Below, in pieces: positions 3,318 through 38,795 of a stretch of 64,000 nucleotides of DNA. Position 1 is the first letter of the stretch. The number at the start of each line of letters is the position of its first letter. The notes beneath the pieces were generated by a model. It ran no database searches. It had not been told where the DNA came from and saw only the letters and a list, made by a program, of their open reading frames with translations. Both the position numbers and the translations under genes were made by a program. This stretch comes from Parasporobacterium sp. (GTDB lineage Bacteria > Bacillota > Clostridia > Lachnospirales > Lachnospiraceae), in NCBI GenBank assembly GCA_017459985.1, contig JAFUBX010000004.1:30680-94679 (forward strand), written 5' to 3'.

Positions 3318-4391
3318 ATGAAAAAGAAACATTGGATCAAAATCGCTATATTTGCCGCATTGACCGCGCTGATCCTTCTGTTTGCGTCTTCACTTCTGTG
3401 TGTTGCGAATGAGAAGGATGCGGTGGGTCTGTACGGATTTTTTCTGGAACCGGAGGACAGTATCGATGTGGTACTGATCGGATCCAGTTCCATTTATACC
3501 GGATTTTATTCCCCGCTGGCCTACGAGCAGCAGGGGTTCACCAGTTACGCCCTGTCCACCTCCACGATGACGGCGCCGCTGTACCGGTACGCGGCGGAAC
3601 TGGCCATCGAGAAACAGCATCCGCAGCTGCTGATCTTCGAAACCTGGAGCTTTACCTATGAGGATCAGCAGGATGAGACAAGTCTGCGGAAATTCCTGGA
3701 CGCGCTTCCGGATTCGGAGCTGAAGCAGCGGGCTATCCGGGAGATCGTGCCGGAGGAATTGCAGACTTCCTTCCGCAATCCCTTCGAGAAATACCATTCT
3801 TCCTGGGACCGTTTCGGGGAACTGCTGCAGGTGATGCAGGATAAGCTGCAGATGAAGCGGCAGGGGTATTCCGTCACCAAGAATTTCGGCACCACCCCCT
3901 TCCGCCAGCCCTATCTGCAGCGCACGACGGATTATGAGGTCTCCGAAAGCGGATTTTACTATCTTCAGGTCCTGCTGGACTATCTGAAGGAGGCGGAGAT
4001 TGAGAACGTATTGTTTATCCGCTGTCCGGACATGGTGCAGTACGTCGGGACGGATTCCTACAAGAGAATGATTGAAATGATCCGGGACGCCGGGTTTGAT
4101 TTTGTCAATCTCAGCGCGGCGGTGGAGGATATCGGTGTGGACATCGGCCATGACTATTATAATACGACTCATTTCAATGTCTTCGGGGCAGAGAAATTCA
4201 CCACCTTCCTTGCGGATTATATGATGAAGCGCTACCGGCTCCGGACCGACCATGATCCGGCGGTCCTGGAAGAGTGGGACCAGTGCGCCTCCCGCAACCA
4301 ACAGATCCTCGGATATCTGGAGGAGCTGACGGAACAGGATGCCAATGGATTTCTCTACACCCAGCGGGATTTTCTGGAGCCCGCATTCTGA
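3318..4391 (+). CDS. DltD/SGNH-hydrolase-like membrane-anchored protein
   Basis: Protein of 357 residues with one N-terminal membrane helix (about 7-28) and an extracellular SGNH-like domain. The block-I nucleophile motif appears as VVLIGSSSIYTGF (GSSS at 55-58), and a late NTTHFNVFGAEKF supplies the usual Asn/His block. DltD, AlgX and AlgJ-like proteins of this kind work with an MBOAT protein to place acyl groups on surface polymers. The chosen ATG at 3318 precedes the lysine-rich MKKKHWIK start of the signal anchor; the open frame reaches back to 2907 but that part overlaps the MBOAT gene. It follows the carrier and MBOAT genes on the same strand, which supports one acylation pathway. Confidence 0.82.
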   Translation: MKKKHWIKIAIFAALTALILLFASSLLCVANEKDAVGLYGFFLEPEDSIDVVLIGSSSIYTGFYSPLAYEQQGFTSYALSTSTMTAPLYRYAAELAIEKQHPQLLIFETWSFTYEDQQDETSLRKFLDALPDSELKQRAIREIVPEELQTSFRNPFEKYHSSWDRFGELLQVMQDKLQMKRQGYSVTKNFGTTPFRQPYLQRTTDYEVSESGFYYLQVLLDYLKEAEIENVLFIRCPDMVQYVGTDSYKRMIEMIRDAGFDFVNLSAAVEDIGVDIGHDYYNTTHFNVFGAEKFTTFLADYMMKRYRLRTDHDPAVLEEWDQCASRNQQILGYLEELTEQDANGFLYTQRDFLEPAF

Positions 4392-4867
4392 CCCGGGCCG
4401 CTTGCGGCACTTCTGCAGGTTTTGGCTGTCCGGAGGGCATTCGGCAAAAGTTCTGGCCTCCGGCCCTCCTGCCGCCATCCGGAATCCGTTTTATCCCTCA
4501 ATGTCATGTAAAAACGAGAGTCAATTGGATTTACATGACTATTTTCGGAAAAGAATCATGTATAAATTAAAATCTTCTGATTTTACATGATGAAAAACAG
4601 GAATTTGTCATGTAAAAAAGAACGTTCCCTGATCTTACATGATAATAATAGAGATTATTTCATGTAAAAAAGAGTTTAATTTGAATTTACATGATGAAAA
4701 ATGGAAAACCGTCATGTAATAATAAAAGTTGTGAATATTTACATGATGTTGAGACAGAAATCTTCATGTAAAATGGCACATTTCTGTAATATACATGATT
4801 AAACGGAGAATTAATCCGGAGAGAGAGTGCGATAAAGTCCGGGAGCTGCAGGTTTTCTGCGAAATAA
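4392..4867. other. Intergenic region containing the 26-bp-period array
   Basis: The 476-bp gap between the DltD-like gene and the PAP2-like gene is GC-rich at 4392-4500, where nothing recognisable is seen apart from a CCGGAGG/CCTCCGG inverted repeat, and AT-rich across the alternating array at 4504-4798. Open frames crossing the array on either strand are judged to be chance readings. No typical terminator with a T-run was found after the upstream gene. Confidence 0.7.
4504..4798. repeat. Array of twelve 9-bp sites, alternating orientation, exact 26-bp period
   Basis: TCATGTAAA and its reverse complement TTTACATGA alternate strictly, starting at 4504, 4530, 4556, 4582, 4608, 4634, 4660, 4686, 4712, 4738, 4764 and 4790. 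Every start-to-start distance is 26 bp, so the intervening 17-bp segments differ in sequence but never in length. Seven or eight sites match the 9-mer exactly and the others have one or two changes at the outer AAA end (4556, 4634, 4712, 4790); the CATG core never varies. No further site lies one period to the left (4478) or right (4816). Each neighbouring pair can also form a 9-bp stem with a 17-nt loop. It ends 69 bp before the next gene's upstream start. Function unknown. Confidence 0.95.
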
Positions 4868-5506
4868 TTGAAAACAGCGCTGATCGGTGCTATAAATTGC
4901 CTTATGAAAAAGGGATTGGATGCGGCAGCAAAGGGGATACGGATCATTATGGTTCCGCCGGTCATCGTGACCGTATTTTTACTGCTGCTGTGGGGATCTG
5001 ACCGGGGGATCTTCGGAGATACCGCAAATCTGCTGGTCAGTATCTTAGGGCTCGGCCTCGTTCCGGTGCTGGCGTATCTTTTGTGGGCCATCGTCCCGGG
5101 ACTGCGCAGGAAAGGCCGGAAGACCCAGAGATCCCTGGCGTTTCTTTTCTCCCTGATCGGATATATCGGAACCTTTCTTTACGGCCATATTCATGGCGTC
5201 CCGGAAAAGCTTCTGCTCATCCTGGACAGCTATCTGGCCTCCTTGCTCCTTCTTTCCTTTATCAATTATGTCATCCGGATAAAAGCAAGCGGACACGCCT
5301 GTTCTGTTGCGGGTCCGCTTGTTCTGTTTGTGTATTTTGCAGGATGGGTTTCTCTGATCCCCTGTCTTGCGATCGAAGTCTTAAGCTGCTGGGCGTCCCA
5401 CAGGACGAAACGGCATACACTGTCCCAGCTGCTTCTGGGAACAGCGGCAGCCCTTTGCGCCTTTGGAATCGCTTGGCTGCTGCATCATCTGTTCGGGGAA
5501 CTGTGA
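4868..5506 (+). CDS. PAP2-like integral membrane protein (degenerate active site)
   Basis: Membrane protein of up to 212 residues with about six hydrophobic helices. IKASGHACSVAGP resembles PAP2 motif II (SGH) and SHRTKRHTLSQLLLG resembles motif III (R...H...D), but the aspartate is replaced by Gln and the Arg-His spacing is shorter. This suggests a PAP2-superfamily fold, typical of undecaprenyl- or phosphatidyl-phosphate phosphatases, with doubtful catalysis. TTG at 4868 is the longest start (MKTALIG); ATG at 4904 (MKKGLDAAAKG) is equally plausible, and neither has a strong ribosome site. The gene stands alone directly downstream of the twelve-site array, so the array may belong to its control region. 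Confidence 0.65.
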   Translation: MKTALIGAINCLMKKGLDAAAKGIRIIMVPPVIVTVFLLLLWGSDRGIFGDTANLLVSILGLGLVPVLAYLLWAIVPGLRRKGRKTQRSLAFLFSLIGYIGTFLYGHIHGVPEKLLLILDSYLASLLLLSFINYVIRIKASGHACSVAGPLVLFVYFAGWVSLIPCLAIEVLSCWASHRTKRHTLSQLLLGTAAALCAFGIAWLLHHLFGEL

Positions 5507-7092: not shown

Positions 7093-7099
7093 TGTTGTT

Positions 7100-7300
7100 C
7101 CTTTCTGTCCTTTTGCCTGAGAGATTCGAAACCTTTGCAGATCCCTTGCCCCTTCGGCCCCCGTTGACCCGGGTGTCTCCAGATTGCCATCCAGCTGTAG
7201 TCCTGACCGCGGGCGGTCTCCTGAGAGTATTACTCCTTCGGCAGAATATCCCCGGAGGGACATTCACTTTCCTGCAGCTTTCATCTGGCAGTTCTATTTA
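7100..7300 (-). ncRNA. Tandem glycine riboswitch upstream of the AGCS symporter
   Basis: On the minus strand two glycine-aptamer 3' halves are seen: GCCGAAGGAGTAA followed by CTCTCAGG, and further downstream GGCCGAAGGGGCAA followed by TCTCAGGCAAAAGGACAG. The second aptamer also shows its 5' CTGGAGAC box. These are the conserved core elements of the gcvT-type glycine riboswitch in its two-aptamer form. It ends 8-12 nt before the symporter start codon, where the ribosome site GAAAGGAAC lies, so control could act at translation; a separate T-run terminator is not evident. Its 5' limit is set from the promoter at 7311-7339. Confidence 0.93.
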
Positions 7301-23550: not shown

Positions 23551-24020
23551 CGGAAGGCCGGCACGGCAGGACGGATGGGGACCGCGAAGCCCTGAACGGG
23601 TATTGCCGGGCAGTTTGTGGATATAGAGAAGAGGTTGTGAAAATGAGATTTTTCACAGCCTTTTTTGATGTGACGGGCATGCCGATGGCCTGTGATGAAA
23701 GACCGTTGAGGGCCAGCAGGCTGAAATGTGAAGGGCTGATTAGTCAGTTGAAGGGCATTTCAGATAGATTTACCGCAATGCTGCAATTTTTCGTCAGCCC
23801 TTGTCGAAAAACTCACGCATTGCTGCAACTTTTCGTCAACGAGTCGCTCCGAGAGGCGTTTCTGCCGAAAATCTCACGCATTGCTGCATTTTTTCGGCAA
23901 AATCCGTGCTGAAGAGAGGGCTCTGCCGAAAATCCCACGCAATGCTGCAATTTTTCGTCAGCCCTTGTCAAAAACTTCAAGCATTGCGGAGTATTCCCAT
24001 CCCGCATGACATTCAGAATT
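23551..24020. other. Non-coding region with GCAATGCTGC repeat cluster
   Basis: After the hypothetical membrane protein there is a 470-bp stretch with no credible gene. Bases 23770-23992 are a cluster of GCAATGCTGC-type repeats; 23551-23760 shows nothing recognisable apart from a GGTTGTGAAAATGAG segment. The open frames 23637-23912 and 23801-24043 run through the repeats and are rejected as genes. Confidence 0.75.
23770..23992. repeat. GCAATGCTGCAATTTTTCG repeat cluster (copy 1)
   Basis: Four units, each with (C)GCAWTGCTGCAA followed by TTTTTCG(T/G)CA, start near 23773, 23815, 23876 and 23936; the last three are about 60 bp apart. Units are linked by TGCCGAAAATC or TTGTCGAAAAAC arms that can pair with the following TTTTTCGGCA, giving hairpins with the GCAATGC word in the loop. 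The cluster ends with CAAGCATTGCGGA, the inverted core. A close relative is at 38545-38795. Confidence 0.85.
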
Positions 24021-38544: not shown

Positions 38545-38795
38545 TATCGCAATACTGCAATGTTTCGGCAATTCTACCGCAATGCTCGCAGTTTTCGACA
38601 ACCTCTGTCAAAAATCTCACGCAATGCTGCAATTTTTCGTCAATCCAGCTCCGAGAGGGCTGTTTCTGCCGAAAATCTCACGCAATGCTGCAATTTTTCG
38701 GCAAAATTCGGGCCTGAGGAGGCCGTCTGCCGAAAATCTCACGCATTGCTGCAATTTTTCGGCAAGCCCTGTCAAAAATGTCGAGCATTGCGGAA
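38545..38795. repeat. GCAATGCTGCAATTTTTCG repeat cluster (copy 2)
   Basis: Five units start at about 38547, 38577, 38618, 38679 and 38740; the last three are 61 bp apart. Units carry (AC)GCAATGCTGCAATTTTTCG and are joined by CTGCCGAAAATCTC, which pairs with the following TTTTTCGGCA. It ends TCGAGCATTGCGGA, matching the end of the cluster at 23770-23992. A short degenerate relative is at about 13385. Confidence 0.88.

Follow-up and report, generated by a model that had tools for sequence, protein, structure and literature searches.

An intergenic array of 12 alternating TCATGTA and TACATGA sites was analysed in a stretch of 64,000 nucleotides of Parasporobacterium sp. DNA (contig JAFUBX010000004.1), the whole of which is called the window here. 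We regard this array, with a probability of roughly 0.6, as a gene-less (solo) copy, comparable to repetitive extragenic palindromic (REP) elements, of a cis-element that belongs to a family of nuclease-like genes across Lachnospiraceae. The link to these genes is one of position: lattices of alternating sites with a score of 5 or more were found in 25 of 52 regions upstream of family genes and in none of 56 downstream regions. Two fragments of one broken gene (L123, L127) were omitted from the upstream scan, and 4 of the 56 loci had less than 250 base pairs (bp) of upstream sequence. Most of the 25 upstream arrays have cores other than TCATG, on which two of them are built.

Geometry and copies of the array

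The window array consists of six inward-facing pairs, and the core 7-mer TCATGTA is exact at all 12 sites. An initial annotation of the window had described twelve alternating 9-bp sites without deviation on an exact 26-bp grid. The number, the alternation and the constant spacing of the sites were confirmed, but the 9-mer is exact at 8 of the 12 sites, with one mismatch in its last two letters at the other four. The array repeats exactly every 52 bp and has a dyad axis at each 26-bp step, whereas the start-to-start distances of the 7-mers alternate between 28 and 24 bp (29 and 23 bp between CATG centres). The even 26-bp grid is thus in part a product of taking the site as 9 bp long, and the 52-bp period is the invariant part. 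Chance can be excluded, since the 9-mer count of the window was reached by none of 100 dinucleotide shuffles and a scan of 700-bp tiles over the window for alternating lattices (period 44-69 bp) gave a score of 5 nowhere but at this array and two elements with a 61-bp period. The 17-bp segments between the sites, described as dissimilar in the initial annotation, are diverged, though not wholly unrelated: mean identity is 0.44 for the six odd segments (500 shuffles: mean 0.298, highest 0.376) and 0.40 for the five even ones (mean 0.316, highest 0.441), the latter not clearly beyond chance. Comparison of whole units gave an identity of 1.0 for the cores and 0.47 for the spacers.

The source genome (G000, 131 contigs) contains many further copies. 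A search for TCATGTA-N21-TACATGA with up to one mismatch yielded 66 matches, and none for the reversed control. The matches listed include at least 13 arrays of this TA class, the window array among them, with 11 to 15 lattice sites each, and one degenerate array (L018) that was left out of the statistics. Twelve lattice sites are present in 8 of the 13, three of which count two CG-type sites at one end. A sister class with the core TCATGCG is represented by 46 pairs, corresponding to 12 loci of three or more sites plus solitary pairs. Two of its four-site arrays (L054 and L058 on contigs C12 and C37) share identical pairs and similar surroundings, possibly because of duplication or assembly redundancy.

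A search of the 13 other genomes of the genus for the CATG geometry alone, again with up to one mismatch, detected 44 matches in a metagenome-assembled genome (MAG) from sheep jejunum (G006), 28 in a MAG from goat jejunum (G012), a single one-mismatch match in G005 and none in the other ten; the reversed control matched once, in G006. Exact TCATG arrays were detected in the source genome but not in the other 396 of 397 Lachnospiraceae genomes searched (two of the genus), nor in viral contigs. A broad scan of a collection comprising, by its own description, 84,980 species revealed 25 stretches in four genomes, namely the two jejunal Parasporobacterium MAGs, an uncultured bacterium and Bacillus dakarensis. 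The Bacillus match was rejected as an ordinary tandem repeat with TCATC. The uncultured bacterium (SRR11489758_bin.113) carries arrays with the core TCATGGG and steps of 22-23 and 30-31 (L042 82-432, L045 483-591). The pattern search and comparison of relatives proposed in the initial annotation thus recovered the same geometry at many G000 loci and in G006 and G012; the number of sites is mostly 10 in the latter two (14 of 20 arrays have 10 lattice positions).

Across these arrays the site is TCATG followed, in most cases, by a pyrimidine-purine (YR) step (TA, CG, TG or CA). Chains both start and end with an inward-facing site in 27 of 33 arrays (13 G000 TA, 20 G006/G012), so that most arrays are a whole number of inward pairs; by eye, their ends mostly read GTCATG..CATGAC or TTTTCATG..CATGAAAA. 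Outside the CG class, the 5-letter cores are 90-100% identical between units in 28 arrays, whereas spacer identity is 37-47% in 17 of these arrays and 49-76% in the remaining 11. The units of six CG-class arrays are 78-95% alike along their whole length. Indels are few, and in several arrays a single step is off by 1 bp, in either direction. Near-duplicates (L019, L025) were excluded from the unit statistics, and second copies of the same loci (L036, L030, L044) were dropped. The G006/G012 arrays (L026-L052) are T-richer in their left and A-richer in their right half (18 of 19 arrays compared), an overall symmetry for which we offer no explanation.

Upstream arrays and the linked gene family

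About half of the family members examined have an array just upstream, its sites roughly 7 bp long and specific in sequence to the gene lineage. Family members in genomes that lack TCATG arrays can likewise be preceded by such arrays, built on other cores. The periods of the 25 upstream arrays are, in bp (number of arrays), 41 (1), 51 (1), 52 (5), 53 (7), 54 (2), 58 (1), 61 (1), 62 (1), 63 (2), 64 (3) and 73 (1); 15 fall at 51-54 bp and 7 at 61-64 bp, and all but one of the 25 lie near 4, 5, 6 or 7 helical turns. The resultant of the periods at 10.5 bp is 0.79 (phase 0.05), with similar values for 10 to 11 bp, related loci not being independent. Lattices with a period of 41-42 bp, near four turns, were seen upstream of the nuclease-like gene at L094, L146 and L154. 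Selection on geometry, as suggested in the initial annotation, is borne out: dozens of loci, some of them in other species, share the period although their spacers have drifted, and unrelated cores in other genera keep near-whole-turn periods.

The distance from array end to the start of the family match is 15-330 bp at the 25 loci. TCATG-type arrays lie directly upstream of the start of a family gene at three loci (G006 C187, G000 C111 and G000 C85), with a gap of 23-53 bp. The similarity of cores follows protein identity weakly but above chance (Mantel r 0.217, fraction 0.009, n = 25 including three TCATG genes). Proteins of two genera with 66% identity (L106/L107) share the core ACGGTT, and proteins of two species with 48% identity (L073/L075) share TCATGTA; the cores of L105/L109 (56% identical) differ. 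Gene-less arrays of two other cores occur alongside gene-linked ones in G008 and G001.

Every one of the 14 genomes of the genus has family genes, with at most 8 matches per genome; in a sample of 40 Lachnospiraceae genomes, one per genus, 17 have them. The protein has about 270 residues and is predicted to comprise a helix, a beta-beta-beta-alpha segment (residues 35-74, low confidence), more helices and a C-terminal PD-(D/E)XK nuclease-like domain. Residues E163, D194 and E209 are invariant in 22 of 22 proteins. The model, predicted from a shallow alignment with two sequences as input, contains the alpha-beta-beta-beta-alpha-beta order of PD-(D/E)XK folds (pLDDT about 58-79), and its structure matches are TnsA, XisH, Bax1, Can2, BamHI and Vsr; with the invariant residues, this places the C-terminal half in the PD-(D/E)XK nuclease superfamily. 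The canonical ExK lysine was not seen in the family protein, and nuclease activity is putative. A PDB search by sequence gave nothing better than E 0.24.

A phage or plasmid origin was rejected: besides the lack of exact arrays in viral contigs, a pattern-based search of these contigs detected no relative of the protein, plasmid matches are confined to the C-terminal domain of three AAA ATPases, and matches in phage records are two short unannotated fecal contigs, the fuller one without upstream lattice.

Spread and surroundings of the arrays

G006 and G012 have four array loci in common. The first is nearly unchanged (L050/L049, 2 differences in 243 bp), at the second the two arrays are a complete 52-bp unit apart (L038/L041, 10 versus 12 sites) and the third has kept its register while the sequence drifted (L046/L047). 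At the fourth (L027/L043), the 10 sites are uniformly TA in one of the two species and uniformly CG in the other; the flanks are 95-97% alike nearby, while further left they are 76% alike or the DNA is missing, which makes local recombination likely. At five unrelated loci of G000 the arrays show 83-96% likeness, their left flanks are unlike, and in three pairs the likeness continues past the right end; whole arrays, or much of their length, have therefore been copied. A check for features of miniature inverted-repeat transposable elements showed that array ends are inverted and that whole arrays recur at unrelated loci. The individual array probably arises by tandem duplication and is then held in shape, since CG-class units are alike, L038 and L041 are one unit apart and some steps deviate by 1 bp. 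Recent duplication and variable spacing, which the initial annotation had named as observations against its view, therefore occur in part. Its option of a single centromere-like locus does not agree with the many copies.

The neighbours of the arrays are varied and include many housekeeping genes, in tandem, convergent and divergent contexts. A regulon of neighbouring genes was rejected, as the families of 30 scanned neighbours varied, and an integrase gene beside one array (L022) was set aside as it occurs at one locus only. In both G006 and G012 an array lies beside gyrase genes (L038 259-501, L041 648-942), that of L041 directly after the C-terminal end of gyrB (Pfam) and before an open reading frame (ORF) of 868 amino acids (aa). 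Several solo arrays, inspected by eye, precede promoter-like sequences or follow terminator-like hairpins. No family gene adjoins 12 of the 13 G000 TA arrays, and tblastn detected no gene remnant in the loci examined.

The window array is AT-rich (GC content 0.264, flanks 0.593 and 0.510) and lies between a gene that we take to be DltD-like and an ORF without Pfam or NCBIfam match (Table 1). No nuclease-like family gene was detected in the window by tblastn with two family proteins as queries (E 1e-4). A promoter scan of the window gave 5 promoter-like matches, 4 of them TTTACA lying on the array sites themselves; a TTGAAA/TATAAA pair at 4868-4896, seen by eye, is absent from its listing. The terminator scan of the window listed none, and Tandem Repeats Finder reported only 4577-4701. 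Rfam at gathering thresholds detected nothing for the array; its one match in the window is a glycine riboswitch (7095-7192, minus strand) upstream of a presumably alanine/sodium symporter-like gene.

Table 1. Array features and adjacent genes, in window positions
Feature	Position	Strand	Basis
Array, 12 alternating TCATGTA/TACATGA sites, period 52 bp, probable solo copy	4504..4798	.	site scans
Repeating odd unit (first of six), TCATGYR-N21-YRCATGA, 35 bp	4504..4538	.	pattern match
Even linker (first of five), 17 bp between back-to-back sites	4539..4555	.	segment comparison
Left neighbour, presumed DltD-like gene, ending 112 bp before the array; outside the element	3318..4391	+	ORF
Right neighbour, ORF of 200 aa (212 aa from an earlier TTG); outside the element	4904..5506	+	ORF

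The two 61-bp-period elements of the window (23771-23990 and 38575-38794, 220 bp each) are alike at 185 of 216 aligned letters, with 8 gap positions. Their ends, ACCGCAATGC and GCATTGCGG, are inverted, and inside lies a lattice of alternating TTCGGCA and TGCCGAA, whose period is near six turns. They probably represent a sibling family; the G000 family loci checked did not reveal its gene.

Proposed mechanism, alternatives and known systems

Binding of the sites by the family protein as an oligomer, probably via its N-terminal part, is suggested by the geometry, by the location of arrays in front of the gene and by the correspondence between core and protein. With a period of whole turns, sites of like direction would share one side of the double helix, allowing a regular filament or wrap; a nucleation track for an oligomeric DNA-binding protein was the best of the options offered by the initial annotation. 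Binding to the upstream array would control the family gene. At solo copies, it may let the nuclease-like domain help to copy or convert arrays between intergenic sites, a spread modelled on REP elements and their transposases.

Several observations weigh against this solo-copy reading. No upstream lattice of score 5 or more was found for 27 of the 52 family members, and a set of ten more distant loci (12 less L148 and L155, which repeat L091 and L082) yielded three lattices, at 41, 42 and 61 bp, and none at the other seven. G012 has seven TCATG-array loci, yet no close family member (best 32% identity; the MAG is 79% complete), and 10 of 13 G006 arrays fetched lie outside the TA class, while the sole close G006 member carries a TA array. 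The family gene of the G000 CG class (L087) has an unrelated C-terminus after the conserved EHFGMMD and looks frameshifted. In the N-terminal half, no DNA-binding domain was recognised by sequence, and the model is weak up to residue 110 (pLDDT 34-48). No target-site duplication was seen by eye at array ends. Finally, no array lies within 1 kb of the dlt loci of four relatives (G006, G013, two of G007), where synteny is broken and no clean empty site is present.

It is unlikely that the array is an autoregulatory operator and nothing more, with solo arrays as remnants of lost genes, extra operators or decoys and with an enzyme that has no role in spread. Such a function would account for arrays that end shortly before the 25 family matches and for the promoter-like or terminator-like surroundings of some solo arrays; it does not account for closely alike arrays at unrelated loci without gene remnant, for the 12 TA arrays without family gene alongside, or for the varied, often housekeeping neighbours in all three orientations.

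We give little credence to a platform of chromosome architecture, in which the arrays would anchor or wrap a nucleoid protein (nuclease-like or other) and be kept for that role. The absence of exact TCATG arrays from nearly all Lachnospiraceae genomes sampled, and of the CATG geometry from 10 of 14 genomes of the genus with a lone match in an eleventh, would be odd for a core role, whereas the many intergenic arrays of fixed size and the four loci common to G006 and G012 would suit it. A 10.4-bp component in spacer GC would also suit it (column permutation 0.0086 for G000 TA, 0.0016 for G006/G012); this phasing is suggestive only, neighbouring columns not being independent. Moreover, a 7.4-bp component (0.365) exceeds the 10.4-bp one (0.221) in G000 TA spacers, and the latter is not significant in the CG class (0.18).

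A comb of stem-loops, formed by RNA or by single-stranded DNA as terminators or as hairpins like those of attC or REP, also raised in the initial annotation as a hairpin or cruciform comb, is very improbable. The window array folds strongly in prediction (z -5.0 as RNA, -5.9 as DNA), because inverted repeats must give such folding. In the non-TA arrays of G006/G012, the YR pair of stem partners matches no more often than expected (odd: 32/66, 31.1 expected; even: 28/54, 24.9 expected, fraction 0.16), and the G000 classes likewise showed no covariation; for single covariation and GC-phasing runs, L050, L040, L041 or L047 were left out as orthologues. Spacer pairing in register is at or below the shuffled expectation (z -2.2, 0.1, -3.5, -2.4). 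Partner sites thus vary independently, which favours DNA half-sites over stems. For REPs, in contrast, PMC2817692 reports complementary changes by which the palindromes are preserved. With sites fixed, spacers drifting and paired sites without covariation, the sequences are fitted better by protein binding than by hairpins.

A functionless minisatellite, formed by neutral tandem duplication of a 52-bp palindromic unit, can practically be dismissed: the CG class, with its alike units and variable copy number, and the one-unit difference of L038/L041 have this character, but the window array does not, 28 other arrays keep their cores while spacers diverge with few indels, and different cores with the same kinds of period precede one gene family in other genera.

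A further-reaching view is that the arrays and the protein form a new class of mobile or selfish element: a small TnsA-like PD-(D/E)XK protein with its own array of alternating 7-bp sites, at a period of 4, 5, 6 or 7 whole turns, which copies gene-less arrays between genes and exists in many mutually specific versions across Lachnospiraceae, site and protein co-evolving. We put this forward tentatively, as possible but short of probable; no published description of such an element was found in the literature searched. If the solo-copy reading is right, an unnamed multi-copy family of a major gut bacterial family would be tied to a readable DNA address code. As many family genes adjoin the sites that their products should bind, protein-DNA specificity, its evolution and the whole-turn spacing rule would be directly testable over many natural versions.

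Among known systems, CRISPR arrays were ruled out, as the sites alternate, are 7 bp long and have spacers with a weak consensus, versus same-orientation repeats of 20 bp or more. Integrase arm-type sites and operator arrays consist of short sites in fixed helical phase near the gene of the presumed binder. The arrays resemble them in this phasing near a gene, and the beta-beta-beta-alpha segment predicted at low confidence is a further likeness; the family protein differs from integrases in having no integrase catalytic domain and no match to a Pfam arm-binding family. The likeness to TnsA, the Tn7 endonuclease, is one of fold, from comparison of a single domain. The candidate defence proteins PDC-S68 and HEAT_CxxC_PDDEXK (PADLOC) share the C-terminal nuclease-like domain (L073: E 4e-25 and 8e-7), but the PDC-S68 models extend over about 1,200 positions, of which only the C-terminal end matches the family protein.

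The closest precedent for arrays spread by an enzyme is given by REPs, their bacterial interspersed mosaic elements (BIMEs) and the REP-associated tyrosine transposases (RAYTs, Y1/HUH) (PMC2817692, PMC3733652; reference list of PMC12306157). BIMEs are presented in PMC2817692 as regularly spaced REPs in alternating orientation, so the initial claim that no described element has such a layout has to be narrowed, the units being different. Both systems are intergenic, dispersed and multi-copy, have lineage-specific sequences and include, besides the dispersed copies, a cognate gene that is itself flanked by the repeat (PMC2817692). The GTAG or CGTC tag of REPs was not seen by eye at array ends. 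A Y1 transposase as partner was rejected, as Y1_Tnp does not track TCATG arrays: PF01797 occurs in G008, G013 and G001, which have no TCATG arrays, and in G000 and G006, and is absent from the array-bearing but incomplete G012. The arrays differ from BIMEs and REPs in a site of about 7 bp that is no palindromic hairpin, in the lack of covariation and in a period near whole turns, and the linked gene is PD-(D/E)XK-like, not Y1. If our reading is right, a second, unrelated enzyme type would join the REP/BIME puzzle of how bacterial intergenic repeats originate and persist.
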